DNA of 21,351 nucleotides from a virus: positions 1-21,351 of IMG/VR virus record IMGVR_UViG_3300050033_000350; one strand, written 5' to 3'. The position numbers and the translations under genes were made by a program. Shown here in pieces: positions 3,917-21,179 of this stretch. Under the pieces are notes generated by a model. That model searched no databases. It was not told where the DNA came from and was given only the letters and a program-made list of their open reading frames with translations. Positions within the stretch are counted from its first letter, which is position 1. Each line of letters begins with the position of its first letter.

Positions 3917-5341
3917 GTGTCTGACGATAGCATTCCAGTAACAGATATCGAAGCCGCTCATGTTGTCATCGAAGATGAAGATGTTGAACATGAAGAATCT
4001 GAAGATGCCATTCAAACAGCAGACAATCCTGTTGTTATGAAAAAGATGAGGGTATTTCTAGAATCACTCAATGTTGAGGAATTAGAAATTCTACTTGAGG
4101 CGCGAAAGAAATCATTAGGAGAAGTTGCTTACGCCATTACAGCAGGAACTGAGGGGAGCTATGATGCGATATTATCCGAACTCAGCGTTGCTCACAGTGT
4201 CGACGCCGATCGCAGTCGGGCAGCCATCGGAGAAATCAAAAATACTGAATTGTTCAAGAACCGATTGGTTGTTGATGGAAAGACAATTCTTGGCACTCCA
4301 AAACTCAACCGTGCGTCTGGAAATGGAGCAGTACTGGTTGGTGCGGATGCTCTGGCTGCTTTCGCAATTCGCGATGGGTGGTTAAAGCGTGTCGTCCTCT
4401 ATAACAGCGGATTTTCTATTGATATCATCGCACCATCTTTGTTGGCACTAAATACTTTTTTCAACAAGGCCTATGATGCGACAAATTCATATGGTAGACA
4501 GTACGGCGGATTGTTCTTTTATTTTCATGATCTGATGATCAAAGAAGCCATTGTCGAATTGGTACTTCCCTTGATTATCAATTCTACTCTACGTGATGCC
4601 AATCGCCACAATACTTTGATTCGCAATATCAAACTTGTCGATCTCAAACTGATTCTCAATGCCATCGGCGCATTGATGTTTCCCGATGGGTTTGCCTTCA
4701 CTCATGTTTGTTCTAATCCAGATGGGACATGTAATCACTTCGAAGAAGTTTTGATTGATATTAACAAACTTGCTTTCTATGATTTCAACAAGATGTCGAC
4801 TGACTGCAGACAACATATGGCTCGGAAGTCTGATATCACGCAAGAATTGTTGGCAACGTATCAACATAATCTTGGTTTTGATGGAACTGAGATTCGTTAC
4901 TTGCAGTACGGATTTACTATGCAACAACCGAGTTTGTCAGACCATCTCGATTACGGTCGCCGTTACAATGGTGAATTGTTAAGTACTGTATTTGTTGATA
5001 AGCCAGATGTTGTTTCTCGGGCTGTGCTATATTCATACTATCAAATCTATACACCATTTATTACAAAACTTACACTCTATAATGCAGATGGTAGTGTTGA
5101 TATTATTACAGAAGATCGTGATGTCATCACTCACATGTTGTTGCGGTTGCAGATAGAGGATACTGAAGGTACGCTGATTAAAGAATTTGATGCCTTTGTT
5201 GCTAAGTCAGAAATCAGTTATATTTGCTATCCTGCAGTTGCATGCCCGTCTTGCAAATACGTACCAAGGAGTGGCTATTATACGGTCGATCCGATTCTGA
5301 CTTTTTTTATGCTATCACTAACGAAATTAAACCTGAATTAA
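3917..5341 (+). CDS. Baseplate-hub/tail-chaperone-like protein with Cys zinc motifs (zero-frame product)
   Basis: This 474-residue protein starts at a GTG with GGAG nine bases upstream. It begins with a very acidic segment (residues 1-35), then a helical region, and ends in a likely zinc-binding domain. That domain contains FTHVCSNPDGTCNH (about residues 257-270) and YICYPAVACPSC near 435-446, four or more cysteines plus histidine, arranged like the Cys-rich part of T4 gp26-type baseplate hub/assembly proteins. This resemblance is from memory and is tentative. A run of seven T at 5302-5308, ten codons before the stop, allows a -1 shift into a 133-codon extension in a frame that has no convincing start of its own. 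Normal termination adds only a short tail (MLSLTKLNLN). Confidence 0.8.
   Translation: MSDDSIPVTDIEAAHVVIEDEDVEHEESEDAIQTADNPVVMKKMRVFLESLNVEELEILLEARKKSLGEVAYAITAGTEGSYDAILSELSVAHSVDADRSRAAIGEIKNTELFKNRLVVDGKTILGTPKLNRASGNGAVLVGADALAAFAIRDGWLKRVVLYNSGFSIDIIAPSLLALNTFFNKAYDATNSYGRQYGGLFFYFHDLMIKEAIVELVLPLIINSTLRDANRHNTLIRNIKLVDLKLILNAIGALMFPDGFAFTHVCSNPDGTCNHFEEVLIDINKLAFYDFNKMSTDCRQHMARKSDITQELLATYQHNLGFDGTEIRYLQYGFTMQQPSLSDHLDYGRRYNGELLSTVFVDKPDVVSRAVLYSYYQIYTPFITKLTLYNADGSVDIITEDRDVITHMLLRLQIEDTEGTLIKEFDAFVAKSEISYICYPAVACPSCKYVPRSGYYTVDPILTFFMLSLTKLNLN
5302..5308 (+). other. Probable programmed -1 ribosomal frameshift site (T TTT TTT)
   Basis: The seven T are read ACT-TTT-TTT-ATG in the zero frame, which is a perfect X-XXY-YYZ slippery heptamer (T-TTT-TTT). 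After a -1 slip the message reads TTT-TTT-TAT-GCT and stays open for 133 codons to 5709. The zero-frame stop lies 31 bases downstream. An SD-like AAGGAG sits at 5266-5271, about 30 bases upstream, which is farther than the spacing known to stimulate slippage. I see no strong downstream stem-loop. A homopolymer sequencing error (one T missing) would give the same picture. Confidence 0.6.
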
Positions 5342-5709
5342 TTACAGAAGACAAATTTAGAGATTACATCGCTAGATTTCGTTTACTCCAGGATAAAATT
5401 CTAACCAAAATCGACAACGGTCGAGATCGATATTCTGCAATTATTGCTTTCAATGAAGCATTTTATAAACTTCGTACTGACACACCATCTATGCTAAGTG
5501 CGGTTGCATATGTTCCACGACTAGGTCGCAATAATGTTTCAAATGAAGCTAATTCATTAGCAAAAATTGTTATACAATATTTAGTTTCCACTAACTGGGT
5601 ACAGTTGTATGGTCTTTCGTATGAAGCCACGATGAAACTTACTTATGCAGAATGGATACGAATGCAAACAGCCCTCAATACGCTACCGCCGCCAGAACCA
5701 TCAGAATAA
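5308..5709 (+). CDS. -1 frame extension of the hub/tail-chaperone-like protein
   Basis: These 133 codons continue the 3917 gene after a -1 shift, giving a fused product of about 597 residues. The frame is open upstream to about 5224, but the only in-frame starts there (TTG 5224, ATG 5242, TTG 5254) lack an SD. After the slip site no start codon occurs until an ATG deep inside, near 5491. The encoded sequence looks genuine: a helical segment (ITEDKFRDYIARFRLLQDKI), a central region, and a C-terminus containing LYGLSYEATMKLTYAEWIRM and ending in PPPEPSE. Frameshift-extended proteins of this kind are established for phage tail assembly chaperones; assignment here is inference. It ends 19 bases before the chaperonin start. 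Confidence 0.6.
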   Translation, partial: YAITNEIKPELITEDKFRDYIARFRLLQDKILTKIDNGRDRYSAIIAFNEAFYKLRTDTPSMLSAVAYVPRLGRNNVSNEANSLAKIVIQYLVSTNWVQLYGLSYEATMKLTYAEWIRMQTALNTLPPPEPSE

Positions 5710-5728
5710 TCAAAGGTTAGTGTTAAAC

Positions 5729-7567
5729 ATGTTAGATGGATATCAGACAATCACAGGCAATCACAACGTGACCAATACATTGAGTGGTAGTGCATTTTAC
5801 ACTCATGTTATTGACACTTGTCAGCAGATCCGCAATATCTTGGTTGATCATTGTGGTCCACATGCAACAGATGCATTGATCATCAAAGACAATGATGGTA
5901 GAAATCTAAAAGATCCCACTTATGCCATTTTCACTAAAGATGGTATTAACATTATCCAATCTATAGAATTTGTGAGTCCTATTCAGAAACATATTCAAAA
6001 CTTAGTTGTCTATGTTGGTAGTCGGGTTGATGCCAAAAGTCATGATGGTACCACAACAGCAATGTTGTTTTTTGTTTCTCTCGTTATACACTATTTCACC
6101 CAACTCAACAAAGATTTAATTGAAGGGAAATTATCCAATTATCGACAATTGCGAAAAGAACTATTGTCAACATTTCATACTTTGACAGACGGCTTAGAAA
6201 AATCCGTAGTGACTGTCGATAGTTTTGCTGCTGATAAATCAATCTCTCGAAAAGAAGCTATTCGTTATGTCGCCTATCATCAGGCGATGTTGTCCAGTAA
6301 GGGCGATACCGAACTTGCGGATGCCATCGTCGAAGTTGTTGAGACACTACCAACTGAATTGTATGGATTGTTTTCAGTTTCCCAATCAAAAATTGAAACA
6401 GATCAGAGATTTACGGTAACGCGAGATGACTTCGATTTTGTCATGTCGGTCATTACAAATCTCGACGATATGAATCATCGGATGAATACCGAATATCTAG
6501 CTGAGTCTTGTGATTTGATTGTCTCGGAAGACGATCTCGTTCGTGGTAATCCTGCACTCAAATTGATCGAACAACAGATCAATGTTCCGACACGCACTTG
6601 TGATCTTGTCATTATAACCAAGTCAATGGATGCCACACTTCAAGGCATAATTGCTGCTTATAATCAAGCCAATCAATATAAGATCATTGTATTTCCATTC
6701 AGCACCCACAAGCCGTATAGTAGTCGGGTTACCATGCTGAGTGCTATTTCTGCAGTAGCAAGTGTCTATCCATTGCGCGAACATGTCATTGACAATTCGC
6801 TTCCCTATCTTATTCGCAATGCCAAAGTGCATTATAAAAATAGACGTCTCTTTGTCAGTAACATCTATACCAAAGACGATACTGCCTATCATCCATCATT
6901 CACAGATCCGACTCGATTTGAACCTTATACTCTTATGGTAACTTCTATTCGTGAAGAGCTTGAAGGATTTACATCCGGACGTCGTCGTGTTGAAACTGCA
7001 GCAGATGAAGCTATGTATACCGACTATGTTGAAATCTATCGACGGATGATCAGTTCAGACATTCGCAATCTACAGATCTCCGGTATGCGCCATGATACAC
7101 TGGCAGATCGAGATGTGTTACAAGATGCTTTTGGAGCGGTACTCTCTTCTCTGGAAAATGGATTTGTGTTTGATGGTTATCTCAAACTCTATCTCACACT
7201 CCATAAAACAGAACGTCCTACCAAATCGATCGTCGAAGTTAAGAATATTGTCGTCGATATTCTTAAGAGTGTTCATAAGCGAGATGTCGCGTCTAATGAT
7301 TCAACAACGTTTACCGAACGACTTCAATCGACTCTTTCTGCAGAATGGCATCCTGACGACTTGATCTATCTCTATTATCCAGTCGACAATTCTCCGACAA
7401 TTTATCTAGATGAATTCCAAGAAGTTGGATATGACGAATCACCGACAGTTACCCCCGTCCTTCAACCAGCAGATAGTTATCGTGAATTGTTTACACGCGT
7501 TGAAGATCTGTTACCAAAATTACTGAACACAAGTCGTGCTATCATTCCAAATACAGTCAATACCTGA
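5729..7567 (+). CDS. Phage-encoded GroEL-like group I chaperonin
   Basis: The protein (612 residues from the ATG at 5729; AAAGG lies about 12 bases upstream) is a divergent chaperonin that should form a ring folding other proteins with ATP. Conserved nucleotide-site elements are visible: GP at 43-44, TKDG at 69-72, and HDGTTTA, whose D106 matches GroEL D87. QDAFG carries D466, matching the catalytic GroEL D398, followed by ENGFVFDG, where the GGG segment is reduced to one glycine. An apical-domain stretch (CDLVIITKSMDATLQGII...) lies near 291-345. The residue equivalent to GroEL D495 appears to be Q579 (VLQP). No GGM tail and no GroES gene are seen. Phage chaperonins are established in EL, OBP and AR9. 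The ORF is open upstream to 5645, but the 5729 start avoids overlap with the frameshift extension; a GTG at 5720 is an alternative. Neighbouring tail genes suggest virion clients (inference). Confidence 0.9.
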   Translation: MLDGYQTITGNHNVTNTLSGSAFYTHVIDTCQQIRNILVDHCGPHATDALIIKDNDGRNLKDPTYAIFTKDGINIIQSIEFVSPIQKHIQNLVVYVGSRVDAKSHDGTTTAMLFFVSLVIHYFTQLNKDLIEGKLSNYRQLRKELLSTFHTLTDGLEKSVVTVDSFAADKSISRKEAIRYVAYHQAMLSSKGDTELADAIVEVVETLPTELYGLFSVSQSKIETDQRFTVTRDDFDFVMSVITNLDDMNHRMNTEYLAESCDLIVSEDDLVRGNPALKLIEQQINVPTRTCDLVIITKSMDATLQGIIAAYNQANQYKIIVFPFSTHKPYSSRVTMLSAISAVASVYPLREHVIDNSLPYLIRNAKVHYKNRRLFVSNIYTKDDTAYHPSFTDPTRFEPYTLMVTSIREELEGFTSGRRRVETAADEAMYTDYVEIYRRMISSDIRNLQISGMRHDTLADRDVLQDAFGAVLSSLENGFVFDGYLKLYLTLHKTERPTKSIVEVKNIVVDILKSVHKRDVASNDSTTFTERLQSTLSAEWHPDDLIYLYYPVDNSPTIYLDEFQEVGYDESPTVTPVLQPADSYRELFTRVEDLLPKLLNTSRAIIPNTVNT

Positions 7568-7604: not shown

Positions 7605-8069
7605 ATGAGCGGCAGCAGTCTGTTGGTAACTGAAGCTATCATTGGTCAAACTGTAACATTTACATCAAAGAATCCAGTCGATCCAACCATCTATAAAGGT
7701 ATCGTCACTGGTATCATCACATACGCTTTATCTGGTTCTTTCGGATTTGATCAAGTTTCATACAACGCAGCGGTACAACGAGCCGATCCAACCGTTGGTG
7801 CCATCACAACACTTAACTATTTCATTGTCACACTAACCAATAACCAACCTGCTCCAGCAAATAGATTGTTTGCTAATGAGTGGATTTCAACAGCCAGCTT
7901 CAGTGTTATTACAAGTGCAACGATCTTCAATCTAAATGTCTATGATATACCAGCACACGGACTTCCTGCAATTCTAGCCATTCTACAAAATGCTGGTTAT
8001 AATGCAGTGCAAGTGACGGCACCATCGGCAGCAGCATTACTCCAAGGTCAAACTTCAACAGCGCCTTGA
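7605..8069 (+). CDS. Small beta-rich virion-like protein, unknown
   Basis: This 154-residue protein starts at an ATG with AGGG seven bases upstream, 37 bases after the chaperonin stop. It is rich in Ser, Thr, Ala, Val and Gly, has no cysteine and almost no lysine, and alternates polar and hydrophobic residues as in beta-strand virion proteins. The C-terminus is Ala/Ser/Pro/Gln-rich (PSAAALLQGQTSTAP). No family was recognised. It is the last gene of the rightward unit and ends just before the palindromic terminator at 8089-8118. Being directly downstream of the chaperonin, it is a candidate client or an abundant tail or head decoration protein, but that is inference. Confidence 0.75.
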   Translation: MSGSSLLVTEAIIGQTVTFTSKNPVDPTIYKGIVTGIITYALSGSFGFDQVSYNAAVQRADPTVGAITTLNYFIVTLTNNQPAPANRLFANEWISTASFSVITSATIFNLNVYDIPAHGLPAILAILQNAGYNAVQVTAPSAAALLQGQTSTAP

Positions 8070-9756: not shown

Positions 9757-11259
9757 TCAACGACTCTTTAGTCTGGCAGCATGTAGAAAAAGGGGGTTCT
9801 TGATTAACCCATTCGTGAGCTGCTGAAGGATGTCATATGATGAAGATAACCCGGCTGTGCGTAGTCCATCGGAGACCGATCCTCGAGACAATATACGCAT
9901 GATTGTTCCCCAGAATAGCTGGCGTATTTTATATCCTTTTGAATTTTTATACTCTTCCACTGTTTGAAGAAGCGTGGTGGTTTCTTTAATATAATAATTT
10001 CTTAATTCTGTACTTAATTTTGGATCTTTAAAAACAACCATGTTATTTTGTAGAAGTTTTTCTAATCGTAACAAAGGAGGATCGTAAGTGCCAATGTCAA
10101 CAAAAGTTAATGTGTGGAATGTTTGTATTATTGCATTAATTCCATACAACAATTCTCGTGCACCGCGTTGTTGACGCATTGCAATTATTGTATCAAGTCT
10201 AACATAAGCAGAAGATTCTGCGTCAAATAACTTTTTCAATCCAGAAGCAAATGCCGCACCAAGTCCATATCGCGAAACAAACTCATCAGCAATTGTTTCA
10301 TTATAACTTGCATTAGATTCGGTAATTACAGTATCTGATGATTTATGACTACCACTATTGATAGTACCATATCGAGCAGATTTTTCAATTTGTTCAATGC
10401 GACTTGTAAATACTTTCCAAAATTTAATACACAAATATAAACCAGCAAGACTGGCAGTTACAACTGCTATTGTAATACCGACTAGATTTTGCTTATTTTT
10501 ATCAATTTCACTTATGGCTTGGTCAAAAGCTTTTGTCCATTGACTATTGGTTGATTTTTTAATATCAGTTTTTATTTCAGATATTGCAATCTGAGACGTC
10601 TTGTCATCAGTCGTTTCACTGAGATAAGATATAGAATTACCTGCCGCATTTACTTTATGATAAAGATCATCGATGTGCTCACAAAGACTCAGGGCATGTC
10701 CACATTCGTGTAAAATAGCAGCCGCATGCTCTTCTGCTGTCAGTGGAACGATACCACCAAAGGCTTCTTCACAAAGATAAAATGCTGGAAATATCTGTAG
10801 TATCATAATAAAATTATGAACTATCTCCGCAAAACTACCCGTATCGAGAGAAATGGTATTATGGTCCAAATCAAAAATATTTGGATTAAACACATTATCA
10901 GTATTCAATCCGGAATACATTTGATTGACATTGCGTATTTTAGTGCCATCTGCTACATTTCTAAATATGGGCAGCGTGGCATATCCGGGTTCTAAATCTT
11001 TATAGCACAACACTAGAACATTCAGCTTTAATTCAGAAGCTAATAATTTTATCAATGCTGGAGCAAATGTATTATTGGTATAATTTGTAGCTTCTTGAAT
11101 ACGACTTGGGGTTATCGGAGATAATTGTTTATCTTCTGTAAATCGCTTAGTGGTTTCAACCCAAGTCAAAAATTCTCCACACAATATCACTAATTGTTTA
11201 GCCAATGTGCTATTGTGTTGAAAGGCAATTCGTTCTATAGCAGGAAGACCTTCAAACAT
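9757..11259 (-). CDS. M48-like membrane zinc metallopeptidase
   Basis: The protein has 500 residues from the ATG at 11259 (AAAGGGG nine bases upstream; a TTG at 11262 is one codon earlier). It shows the full order of landmarks of M48-type gluzincins. These are HECGH at 184-188 (two zinc histidines plus the catalytic Glu), a hydrophobic span at about 259-282 (LVGITIAVVTASLAGLYLCIKFW), ETIAD at 321-325 as the likely ExxxD third zinc-ligand motif, and TYDPPLLRLEKL near 391-402, recalling the THPPxxxRIxxL end motif of the family. A long helical N-terminus of about 150 residues and a C-terminus of about 100 residues are not recognised. The activity would be proteolysis near a membrane. The substrate is unknown: a virion protein, a neighbouring membrane protein or a host protein. 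It sits alone between two hairpins. Confidence 0.7.
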   Translation of the reverse strand: MFEGLPAIERIAFQHNSTLAKQLVILCGEFLTWVETTKRFTEDKQLSPITPSRIQEATNYTNNTFAPALIKLLASELKLNVLVLCYKDLEPGYATLPIFRNVADGTKIRNVNQMYSGLNTDNVFNPNIFDLDHNTISLDTGSFAEIVHNFIMILQIFPAFYLCEEAFGGIVPLTAEEHAAAILHECGHALSLCEHIDDLYHKVNAAGNSISYLSETTDDKTSQIAISEIKTDIKKSTNSQWTKAFDQAISEIDKNKQNLVGITIAVVTASLAGLYLCIKFWKVFTSRIEQIEKSARYGTINSGSHKSSDTVITESNASYNETIADEFVSRYGLGAAFASGLKKLFDAESSAYVRLDTIIAMRQQRGARELLYGINAIIQTFHTLTFVDIGTYDPPLLRLEKLLQNNMVVFKDPKLSTELRNYYIKETTTLLQTVEEYKNSKGYKIRQLFWGTIMRILSRGSVSDGLRTAGLSSSYDILQQLTNGLIKNPLFLHAARLKSR

Positions 11260-11277
11260 CAAATTATTCCCCTTTGT

Positions 11278-17056: not shown

Positions 17057-18184
17057 ATGGTAGCTGCCTCGGACCCAACGACTACTCCAAGTCTAACAAG
17101 CATTGCTGCGTCCGTTGCAACCACTGCCCAATTAGAAACATTGTTTTCACAAGCAACGCAGCAATCATTTCGAGCCGCCGGTACTGGTAGTTATCTGTCT
17201 CAGTATCAGTCGCTTTTATCGCAATTCGATCGGTATGGCATCAATGCCATGCTTCCAAATCACGAAGTGGTTGGGTATACTTTTATTACCAGACCAAAAT
17301 TAAACTTCTCAACAACGTCTCTACGACAAGATCGTATTCTATCTATGTTGGATACTGCAGACAATAGTTCATTACAATTTGCCATACGGTGTTATCTGGA
17401 TACGCGTTATGCTAAGTATGTTGACAATTTAGCATTAAAGTGCCCATTCTTTAATGCACAATCCCCCTTTCTGATTCCACTATCAAACAACCTCGTTTCA
17501 GTTTCGGGTTGGCCAGATCCAGTGCTTGATACCGAAACCACCGATGGTGGATTCTTTAGTGAAGATATGACTATGGTCAAAGGGTCGGATCGACTCAATC
17601 GTACGTATGATATAACACTAACATTTCGTGACATCCAAGGTGGATTTATCATTTCATTACTCTGGATGTGGATCCACTATATCGAACTTGTTGTGCGTGG
17701 CGACACCATGGCTTATCCTGAAGATATTGAAGCTAGACGAATTAACTATACCTGTTCGATTTATCGAATGGTATTAGATCCGTCTCGGCAATTTATTACC
17801 AAATGGTCAAAAGCCACCGGGTGTTTTCCAAGATCCCTTCCGATTGGTAATATTTTCAACTTTGGTGAAAAAGAAAACTTCATTCATAGCGCTGCACAAT
17901 ATTCAGTACCATTTACGGTAAACAAAGTAGAGATCATGGATCCTATTATTTTTAGAGATTTCAATACTATTGTTGCACGGTATGCTCCTTTTGTAAAACA
18001 AGTCGGCAATACAATATCCCCCGTAGCGAATGCCGGTAACAACTTTATGGGTACTCCTTATATAGATCTCCTTAATGGTTATAACCAATTGAACTTCCTA
18101 CTTCCATCTGGTACTATTATAAACGACCCCTTTATGGATCAGTTAAATTCCATGAAGTTGTTATTTAATACCCTTTCTACTTAA
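17057..18184 (+). CDS. Probable tail/baseplate structural protein
   Basis: This 375-residue protein starts at an ATG with GGA and AGAG elements upstream. The N-terminus is Ser/Thr/Ala-rich and flexible (residues 1-45). It is followed by a folded, aromatic-rich domain with VGYTFITRPKLNFS near 72-85, GGFIISLLWMWIHYIELVVRG near 195-215 and a Pro/Asn-rich C-terminus. The composition (few charges, many aromatics, no cysteine cluster) and the position directly upstream of the large wedge-like gene point to a virion structural protein. From memory, a protein with a FxTRPxLN segment occurs in the tail modules of large phages, but I cannot name it precisely. The transmembrane-looking stretch is more likely a buried strand/helix, given the rest of the protein. 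Confidence 0.65.
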   Translation: MVAASDPTTTPSLTSIAASVATTAQLETLFSQATQQSFRAAGTGSYLSQYQSLLSQFDRYGINAMLPNHEVVGYTFITRPKLNFSTTSLRQDRILSMLDTADNSSLQFAIRCYLDTRYAKYVDNLALKCPFFNAQSPFLIPLSNNLVSVSGWPDPVLDTETTDGGFFSEDMTMVKGSDRLNRTYDITLTFRDIQGGFIISLLWMWIHYIELVVRGDTMAYPEDIEARRINYTCSIYRMVLDPSRQFITKWSKATGCFPRSLPIGNIFNFGEKENFIHSAAQYSVPFTVNKVEIMDPIIFRDFNTIVARYAPFVKQVGNTISPVANAGNNFMGTPYIDLLNGYNQLNFLLPSGTIINDPFMDQLNSMKLLFNTLST

Positions 18185-18266: not shown

Positions 18267-21179
18267 ATGTTTGAAAATACAACTCTTGCAGCATCAGTTC
18301 TAGCAAATCCAGCTTCAGTGCAGAGTATGGTGTTGACTGAATTCCAAAATAGACTTGGTGGTACCTATTCCGTTGCGGATCCCAACAATAGTTTCAATCT
18401 ATTACTAGAAGCCAATTCATCAATCAATGCTCAATCTGTACGATTCATGGAATCGATGTTTGATGCTCAATATGCAGTACGAGCAACAACGAGTGCTGAA
18501 CTCTATAACAACATGTCTGATTTTGACTATCTCAGTATGGTGGCTGGACCATCGTCTACAACAATCAATCTTACTTTTAATGCCGATTATTTAATTGCCA
18601 ATGCTCGTTACTATGATGTTGTTTATAACCGTGTTGTCATTCCAGCCGGATCTCAATTCTACATTGGACCATTGACATTTGGTATCTACTATCCCATCAA
18701 CATAGACATCAATCGCACTACAGACAACATCAATGTTTTATGGGACACCACAATAAACAATCCACTACAGACATTGTCTACCAATATGGTACCATTCGTA
18801 CAATATAGCAATGGTGGTCTCAATCTAATAACCCTTACTATTCCAGTATCTCAATTTGCTATGTCCACCACAATATATCCAGTGGTGGCACAGCAGGGAT
18901 TTATTCAATCAATTAACTATCCAAATCAATTCTATGCTGCTAGAGTATTCACCAACTTACCCACTGGTAGTTGGACAGAATTAGCTTATACTCTATCGGA
19001 AACCGTCTACGATCCAACAACGCCAACTGCCAAACTCACTATTCAAAACGATACCAATATTCTAACTGTTAGTATTCCACAAATCTATTTTACCAATAGT
19101 CAAATTGGTAATCAGGTGATGGTCATGGTCTATACGACGGAAGGGGCGATTGCATTAGATTTAACCAGTGTTGAAGTATCTAGTTGTAATTGTGACTTCG
19201 GGCTTAGTCTTACTGAAGTTAGTCCATATGCACTGATTCTTGCTAACTTGGCAACTATTGATTTAACGCCAGCCGAGATGTCCATAACGGGTGGTTCGAG
19301 TGCTCTTAGTTTTACAGCATTACGAAATCTTGTTATCAATGGAGGTCTTTATACTTCTGTTCCAGTAACACCAGCTGAACTCACAGCATATGCCGCCAAA
19401 CAAGGTTTTGCTATTACTAAATATATTGACAATGTCACTGATAGAATTTACTATGCTTCTAACACCATCAGTGGTGGTCAGAATGGCTACGTCATGGTTA
19501 CGACTGCCACCATATCAGTTATACTTCCTCCAGTTGGATCTACCACTGGACTGCCATCAACCATTCTAAATTTCCCAACTGAAAATGCAGTTATGATTTT
19601 ACCAACAACTATTTATAGTTATAATACACAATCTGATCTTTGTACCCCACTCACAGATACAGCCGTTATAGTTTTGAACAATATGACTAAAGCGGAATTT
19701 GCCACAGAAGTCAATACCAATTCTTATACAAAATGCCCATTTCATATTGTTACTTATACAGCATCACAATATCCCATTACCAAGAGTTTTGATTTGATGA
19801 ATCCCACTGCAAGTACAATTCGGTATATTGCAGACAATGTTGAATTAACACCACAGATGTCACTTGTTAGTGCTGCTGTTATTCACAATAACAATGGTAC
19901 AGGCGGTTATACGCTACGACTTGGTGTGACAAAGACTTCTATGATGTCATTGATTGCAGAAAGCGACATTACTGTTTATTTGTCTGTCATTGGTAGCAAC
20001 AATGACACGTTCTATGGTATTGCAACATTAAGTGGTACGTCTGGTGTTCTTTACATATATGAACTTCAAATTCCAACGACTTATTATATTTCACAACAAG
20101 ACACATTCCGTTCCACCATGTTGTCAACAACACAAGGTATTGCTACAACTGTAGATATTCCATTAGCATCAACATTCACAGTAACCTTCTTACTTACACC
20201 ATCGCTTTATCCGGCTGCATTAACAACTCAAAATGTTAACATTGTAAATAATTTGGCAACTCCTTATAACCAACTCCTTGGCGTCTGTCAACAACAAGTT
20301 GATGTTGTGTTTGGAACAGATCTGTCTTCTCATCTTTATAACAGTACAAATGCATTATGGACATCAACCACCTATGCTGTCTGGCCAGAGACCATATATC
20401 AAACATATCCAACAGATGTTTATGAAACAGATGCACAGGGAGGTTTGGTTTATACAGTTGTTTCTGGTGTATTACATCTAAACAAAATACATAGTTTGGG
20501 CGACCAGGTCCTTGATAGTAGTGGTAATCCCATTGTATTACATGCTATTGGATCAAGTAAATTAGATTCTCTTGGTAATCCTATCACGATGGCAACGCGT
20601 CAACTCAACTACTATGTCAGTAGTATGATGTTCGACATGCGATTGTTTTATAGTACCAATCAGGCAGATGTAACTTTTGTTAGTAATCTTACAAATACCC
20701 TCATGTCATATTTTGCAACACTAACTACGATTCAAGGTAATCTCCTGGAACAAACAAGTCTATATTATCGACCAAACAATACCATGGGATTGGCTACTTT
20801 TAGTGCTGGTAATAACAAACCCATATCCCTCGATCTCGGTTTTAGTTTTTCTTTTATTGCTTATGTATCACAAGCAACACTTGATAATCCTACATTGACT
20901 TCGGCAATAGTTGCCGATATAACATCAATTACTCAAAGTGAGATGACCAAACCTATTATTTCATTAACTGAAATAGCTGATAATATCAAATCTCAATTAA
21001 GTGACACTATCATTAGTCTAGATATCGAAGGTATTGACAGCACAACGACTCTCCAAACAGTTATAGTTCCTGCAGGAACTATAAGTCCAATCATTGGTCA
21101 ACAACTTGTCTATAATTCAGCAACCGACTCACTGGCACTTGGTAGTATGATACAAGTAGCTTTTGAACTAGCCGCATAA
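18267..21179 (+). CDS. Large baseplate-wedge-like virion protein
   Basis: This 970-residue protein is Thr/Ser/Asn/Ile-rich, nearly free of Lys and Arg clusters, and dominated by beta strands, as in large baseplate proteins. The N-terminal part contains a helical segment (FNLLLEANSSINAQSVRFME near 46-65) then FNADYLIANARYYDVV...VVIPAGSQFYIG near 107-139, an order I associate with gp6-like baseplate wedge proteins of large myoviruses. Near 742-775 two tandem 17-residue repeats occur (HSLGDQVLDSSGNPIVL, HAIGSSKLDSLGNPITM). The C-terminus has ADITSITQSEMTKPIISL and ends in GSMIQVAFELAA. The SD AGGAG lies 11 bases before the ATG, and a five-codon ORF (MKFHV) overlaps the approach. The gene probably acts with the upstream structural gene in building the baseplate (inference). 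Confidence 0.6.
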   Translation: MFENTTLAASVLANPASVQSMVLTEFQNRLGGTYSVADPNNSFNLLLEANSSINAQSVRFMESMFDAQYAVRATTSAELYNNMSDFDYLSMVAGPSSTTINLTFNADYLIANARYYDVVYNRVVIPAGSQFYIGPLTFGIYYPINIDINRTTDNINVLWDTTINNPLQTLSTNMVPFVQYSNGGLNLITLTIPVSQFAMSTTIYPVVAQQGFIQSINYPNQFYAARVFTNLPTGSWTELAYTLSETVYDPTTPTAKLTIQNDTNILTVSIPQIYFTNSQIGNQVMVMVYTTEGAIALDLTSVEVSSCNCDFGLSLTEVSPYALILANLATIDLTPAEMSITGGSSALSFTALRNLVINGGLYTSVPVTPAELTAYAAKQGFAITKYIDNVTDRIYYASNTISGGQNGYVMVTTATISVILPPVGSTTGLPSTILNFPTENAVMILPTTIYSYNTQSDLCTPLTDTAVIVLNNMTKAEFATEVNTNSYTKCPFHIVTYTASQYPITKSFDLMNPTASTIRYIADNVELTPQMSLVSAAVIHNNNGTGGYTLRLGVTKTSMMSLIAESDITVYLSVIGSNNDTFYGIATLSGTSGVLYIYELQIPTTYYISQQDTFRSTMLSTTQGIATTVDIPLASTFTVTFLLTPSLYPAALTTQNVNIVNNLATPYNQLLGVCQQQVDVVFGTDLSSHLYNSTNALWTSTTYAVWPETIYQTYPTDVYETDAQGGLVYTVVSGVLHLNKIHSLGDQVLDSSGNPIVLHAIGSSKLDSLGNPITMATRQLNYYVSSMMFDMRLFYSTNQADVTFVSNLTNTLMSYFATLTTIQGNLLEQTSLYYRPNNTMGLATFSAGNNKPISLDLGFSFSFIAYVSQATLDNPTLTSAIVADITSITQSEMTKPIISLTEIADNIKSQLSDTIISLDIEGIDSTTTLQTVIVPAGTISPIIGQQLVYNSATDSLALGSMIQVAFELAA

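Follow-up and report, generated by a model that had tools for sequence, protein, structure and literature searches.

Probable programmed -1 frameshifting in a putative tail assembly chaperone gene of phiKZ-like jumbo phages

A gene of the phiKZ-like phages very probably uses programmed -1 ribosomal frameshifting to produce short and long tail assembly chaperones. We describe it at positions 3917–5709 of a virus fragment of 21,351 bases (the window, by which we mean the whole analyzed stretch of DNA). Frameshifting is a known mechanism, and its use in the phiKZ group is, provisionally, apparently unreported: a search of open PMC full text turned up no description of this frameshift for the phiKZ-like phages, and a jumbo phage review from 2026 is silent on frameshifting. 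The frameshifted tail chaperone is extended to the phiKZ group and tied by profile and structure to gp26 and gp51 of T4. The group is intensively studied for its phage nucleus and for therapy, and we propose a function for a conserved unnamed gene pair in it, gp77 of phiKZ and the mis-annotated PHIKZ076.4 region.

Slip site and -1 frame extension

In the window, the short form (TAC-N; 3917–5341, plus strand) has 474 amino acids, starts at a GTG with GGAG 5' of it, belongs to phrog_4585, and is a homologue of phiKZ gp77. It carries two conserved Cys pairs identified from the alignment: a zinc-ribbon-like pair in nearly invariant columns (C265/C272, 4709–4732), and a CPxC pair common to T4 gp26 (C443 and C446, 5243–5254). 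The zero frame ends CCG ATT CTG ACT TTT TTT ATG CTA ... TAA, with ACT-TTT-TTT-ATG at 5300–5311 and the TAA at 5339–5341, its last base lying 33 nt past the slippery heptamer. This heptamer, T_TTT_TTT at 5302–5308 on the same strand, coincides with the invariant Phe463-Phe464. No stop interrupts the -1 frame from 5206 up to the one at 5707–5709, and the extension (TAC-C; 5308–5709, plus strand) comprises 133 codons and the stop. The putative long form (TAC-NC; 3917–5709, plus strand), produced by a -1 frameshift at 5302–5308, would have 464 + 133 = 597 residues. Re-reading and recounting thus reproduced the zero-frame anatomy, the open -1 frame and the lengths of 474 and 597 residues given in the original prediction.

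The -1 frame in the window has start codons in the region of overlap, e.g., TTG at 5224 and ATG at 5242, and these two are without a purine-rich Shine-Dalgarno sequence. Past the slip site, the first start codon is ATG at 5491, where it had been expected approximately, and it also has no Shine-Dalgarno sequence.

Relatives of the window gene are found throughout the phiKZ-like jumbo phages, with short forms of 474–626 amino acids and extensions of 131–181 amino acids. Two other IMG/VR contigs, L001 and L002, with the identical stretch in both, carry a homologue with 69% amino acid identity to the window protein, the slip site GCT TTT TTT ATT, the stop at the same position, and 131 codons of extension in the -1 frame. 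The run is of seven T in these contigs as well, not of the eight that the original prediction had named as the mark of a single uninterrupted gene.

For a broader comparison, we assembled 70 non-redundant phiKZ-like loci, window included, from annotated phages and IMG/VR homologues, after near-duplicates (95% over the 700 nt surrounding the stop) had been excluded and EL had been added. The scan of the collection was seeded by sub-group alignments, because the sequences in the family-wide alignment A1 diverge too much for it to serve as a seed. The annotated loci were those of Noxifer, DT01, LucasX, phiKZ, 201phi2-1, PhiPA3, Goslar, Ea35-70, Yong XC31, SaP7 (SPN3US type), FLC8, MJ359, ParM-25, Miami, AH06, and EL. 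At the homologous Phe-Phe, every one of the 70 loci has an in-phase TTT and then TTT or TTC, and in all of them the -1 frame is open for 362–494 nt beyond the zero-frame stop; the +1 frame of the same loci has no comparable pattern. Both the conserved T-run and the open second frame that were to be looked for in homologues are present. The heptamers are T_TTT_TTT (37 loci), T_TTT_TTC (24), G_TTT_TTT (6), and G_TTT_TTC (3), that is, a legal T_TTT_TTT/C in 61 of the 70 and G_TTT_TTT/C in nine homologues, where re-pairing at the P site is imperfect. Two loci, L069 and L075, were read from the end of the match and have GTT TTT TTT and the extension. The slip-site Phe residues are two of the seven invariant columns in an alignment of 47 sequences.

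Such a combination is rare elsewhere in the same loci. A TTTTT P/A site together with a -1 frame open for at least 300 nt was found at 2 of 353 control ORF ends (355 counted minus the target-gene copies of L069 and L075, which were also subtracted from the four cases). Among other Phe-Phe pairs, T_TTT_TTY occurs in 14 of 277, and the first Phe codon is TTT in 39 of 277 vs. 70 of 70 at the slip site. Since both control ORF ends and other Phe-Phe pairs so rarely match, the slip site is selected at the nucleotide level rather than being a by-product of coding for Phe-Phe, and the contrast with the control ends supports the reading of the seven-T site as a programmed -1 frameshift. No stimulatory element was universal. 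For a downstream RNA stem in 67 scored loci, the mean z was -0.45 vs. -0.27 in controls, a non-significant difference, and z fell below -2 in 10/67 loci vs. 10/268 controls. A Shine-Dalgarno-like stimulator upstream was present in 3/67 loci, with no conserved element.

The extension evolves as a protein. The alignment of the window with L001 is gapless from the slip site to the first start. In the 49 codons between the zero-frame stop and that start, pS and pN in the -1 frame are 0.72 and 0.24, and the substitutions number 17, 9, and 26 at codon positions 1, 2, and 3, the third position accounting for 26 of 52; the remaining frames contain stops, and the contrast there is weaker or absent. In other close pairs, dN/dS of the extension is about 0.05–0.31 where it could be calculated (the saturated pair L015/L016 yields no ratio), and extensions from distant phages can be aligned with each other. 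The -1 frame overlap 5' of the slip site is free of start codons in 55 of the 67 scored loci, L001 being one example. The median distance from the slip site to the first start is 99 nt; it is 183 nt in the window and L001, and in phiKZ the first start comes only at 255 nt, at the annotated start of PHIKZ076.4. The -1 frame is therefore under protein-level selection where only frameshifting readily translates it. Where homologues are annotated with a separate downstream gene, starts usually lie tens to hundreds of nucleotides past the slip site, contrary to the outcome that the original prediction had named as refuting, an extension that is a gene with its own Shine-Dalgarno sequence and ATG.

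Every record we examined annotates the frameshifted phiKZ-like gene as two separate genes, and the downstream member of each pair, a "hypothetical gene", is in all likelihood an incorrect annotation. Such mis-annotation affects proteomics searches and gene counts. In the phiKZ locus (L007), the extension spans 5425–5940 and PHIKZ076.4 is annotated from 5698, with the first 85 conserved codons omitted.

Relationship to known tail assembly chaperones

A Pfam search of the window gene yielded no family match, and the DT01 homologue has been labelled gp26-like by its depositors. We aligned a profile of the phiKZ-like short form with a profile of seven members of the gp26 family, and found the two to be colinear across both Cys pairs and up to the Phe-Phe at the end (score 41.7, P 8.7e-5, a moderate hhalign probability of 60%), with none of 60 column-shuffled decoy profiles scoring above 20.4. 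The gp26-family profile was required, as T4 gp26 and gp51 taken as single sequences had no convincing match to the family profile. The C-terminus of T4 gp26 reads CPECGK...EFFELL. An AlphaFold2 model of the short form (pLDDT 77.8, pTM 0.73) retrieved phiKZ-like proteins as top hits in a fold search, followed by T4-type gp26-like baseplate hub proteins (E 2e-5 to 6e-4, target TM 0.47–0.63); a fold search of the PDB returned no match. Judging from the profiles and the model, the short form is related to the T4 gp26 family.

The model of the extension has low confidence and yields no significant fold match. The C-terminal domain of T4 gp51 contains FTFYQINHTLVKSNYSLNS, and the phiKZ-like extension matches the gp51 C-terminus weakly (probability 10%); none of 60 decoys reached the score, the best of them coming close. 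At the sequence level this is suggestive only of a relationship between the two.

Two T4-like phages, Ah1 and DSL-LC02, whose proteins are divergent members of the gp26 family, provide a parallel. Their gp26 ends in ...SDFFx*, with GAT TTT TTC forming T_TTT_TTC at the corresponding Phe-Phe and with a gp51-like -1 extension. These extensions are about 58 codons long (2681–2863 in DSL-LC02, L107; 2702–2881 in Ah1, L108); the DSL-LC02 record lists its extension as a small gene of its own, and the Ah1 record leaves it unannotated. The gp26 ends of Cygsa01 and phiAS4 have no such slip site. The gp26-like gene of phage SP-15 has A_TTT_TTT, but its -1 frame stays open for just 83 nt beyond the stop, and the gene was not counted.

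Compared with T4, the phiKZ-like system shares an alignable short form, the two Cys pairs, and Phe-Phe near the C-terminus, but is encoded by one frameshifted gene rather than two separate genes 26 and 51. The short forms are 2–3 times longer than the 208 amino acids of T4 gp26, and the extensions have 131–181 amino acids vs. about 58 in T4-like phages. T4 gp26 and gp51 were reportedly identified as tail assembly chaperones by Vladimirov, Gautam and Davidson, in work of 2022 in Virology (566:9). The original prediction had found it unusual that the carrier of the frameshift looked like a baseplate-hub protein; the resemblance to the T4 "hub" protein gp26 stands, and the oddity disappears if gp26 itself is, as is said, a chaperone. 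For the same reason, the carrier and the frameshift point to one function. Two papers (PMC12846349, PMC10885494) refer to Vladimirov et al. 2022 for T4-like tail assembly chaperones, and the former, citing that work, places poly-T slip sites in T4-like TAC-N genes.

Unlike usual tail chaperone genes, the phiKZ-like gene does not adjoin a recognized tape measure gene: a chaperonin gene follows it in the window and L001, and other genes do so in phiKZ and EL. Such adjacency is a positional hallmark rather than a defining feature, because T4 departs from it too, genes 26/51 and 29 being non-adjacent. The slippery sequence of lambda is GGGAAAG, which differs from the phiKZ-like T-run. Lambda gpG/gpGT resembles the phiKZ-like pair in having short and long forms, which arise from a -1 slip close to the 3' end of the chaperone gene (Levin 1993; Xu 2004), but the lambda gene adjoins that of the tape measure protein. 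The two lambda proteins form a coat on the tape measure protein, and tube subunits are recruited by the T domain (PMC5009743). The chaperone genes of Vandenendeviridae and Andersonviridae have a GTTTTT poly-T site of the G_TTT_TT type, and the long part is routinely mis-annotated there as a separate gene; unlike in the phiKZ group, the tape measure gene follows directly (PMC12846349). In another jumbo phage, G, a tail frameshift of the G-T type has been predicted for gp181/gp182, but this phage has the canonical order of sheath, chaperone, and tape measure genes and lies outside the phiKZ group (PMC8570332).

Alternative readings

The extension could instead be a separate gene with its own start, as it appears in the records (Noxifer_72, PHIKZ076.4, PA10_00172, LUCX_95, EL gp48) and as the distinct T4 genes 26 and 51 may suggest. 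The extension is, however, a conserved protein 5' of its first start, in a frame open in every locus, which argues against this reading; moreover, annotated starts are placed inconsistently among the records, and a standalone gene would need no phased T-run in every homologue. We consider a separate gene very unlikely. About as improbable is transcriptional slippage, in which the RNA polymerase rather than the ribosome would join the frames by adding a T. It is favored by the homopolymeric T7 of the window and by the fact that phiKZ-like phages use their own RNA polymerases. Yet the T-run invariably stands in phase with a pair of Phe codons, and 24/67 scored loci have T_TTT_TTC with six T and 3/67 have G_TTT_TTC with five, too short for classical slippage. 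Since these 27 of the 67 scored sites have five or six T before C, slipping on the ribosome is the favored mechanism. As homopolymers are the usual place of such errors, one could also imagine a gene broken by the loss of one T, in a pseudogene or an assembly error, but the frame break is identical in all 70 loci, finished phage genomes included; this reading is already refuted and retains next to no probability.

The frameshift could also be real and programmed, but serve a protein with a different role, such as a genuine component of the hub or a regulator outside the virion. Some records name the short form a baseplate hub, and the gene lies apart from the tape measure gene. In addition, Churi gp256, a homologue of phiKZ gp77, is already detected 15 min into infection (PMC11849849). 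Against a different role stand the relationship to gp26/gp51 and the matching slip site in T4-like phages, as well as, indirectly, the apparent absence of the short form from virions. The latter is indicated by the listing of Churi gp256 among expressed non-structural proteins (PMC11849849, Table 1) and by annotation: the record of 201phi2-1 gp136 is without a mass-spectrometry note, with virion notes on its neighbours gp138 and gp139, and EL gp47 is "hypothetical", like several nearby genes, with some neighbours "virion structural". On balance, a different role seems unlikely.

Proposed mechanism and neighbouring genes

Under programmed frameshifting, most ribosomes would translate 3917–5341 into the short form TAC-N, with its gp26-like domain of two Cys pairs. 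A minority would slip back by one base with tRNA-Phe on TTT-TTT at 5303–5308, and read the -1 frame to 5709, yielding the long form TAC-NC, whose C-terminal domain would be helical. Slipping would occur on the ribosome and at a useful rate, and the two products may be made in a set ratio. By analogy with lambda gpG/gpGT and T4 gp26/gp51, both forms would act as chaperones: the tape measure protein would be covered by many short copies and a few long ones, whose extra domain would recruit tail tube subunits. Points that count against this model are the chaperonin gene in the place of a tape measure gene, the size of the short form relative to T4 gp26, the nine homologues with G_TTT_TTY, the lack of a conserved stimulatory element, and the weak match of the extension to the gp51 C-terminus.

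The gene at 5729–7567 (plus strand), 19 bp past the end of the extension, encodes a divergent GroEL/Cpn60-like chaperonin (Pfam Cpn60 4.1e-6, below the cut-off; phrog_5725 3.7e-17). It is kept in L001, and is missing from this place in phiKZ and EL. Its product retains the DGTTT motif, and in a tblastn search at 1e-3 the sole match to a phage record was GroL of Shewanella phage FishSpeaker. We regard this gene as context and not as a part of the system, and any role with the frameshifted pair would be a presumed one. Speculatively, the phiKZ-type chaperone may be an enlarged branch of the T4 type, unlinked from the tape measure gene, with the chaperonin of the window lineage helping the pair to fold or load a very long tape measure protein; we rate this scenario as rather improbable.

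Other genes of the window include a divergent family B polymerase gene (435–2606, PF20286). About 5 kb from it, on the opposite strand, the product of 7605–8069 (plus strand) has a weak, below-cut-off match to PF20287, a domain with an SH3 fold that reportedly occurs along with DNA polymerases of phages. A 501-aa protein encoded at 9757–11262 (minus strand) belongs to no Pfam family and has an HECGH motif, similar to HEXXH-type metalloproteases. Finally, 18267–21179 (plus strand) encodes a protein of 970 aa that matches phrog_3248 (unknown function) very strongly; it is encoded next to the Phage_TTP_15 tail tube gene (17057–18184) and is possibly a tail component.
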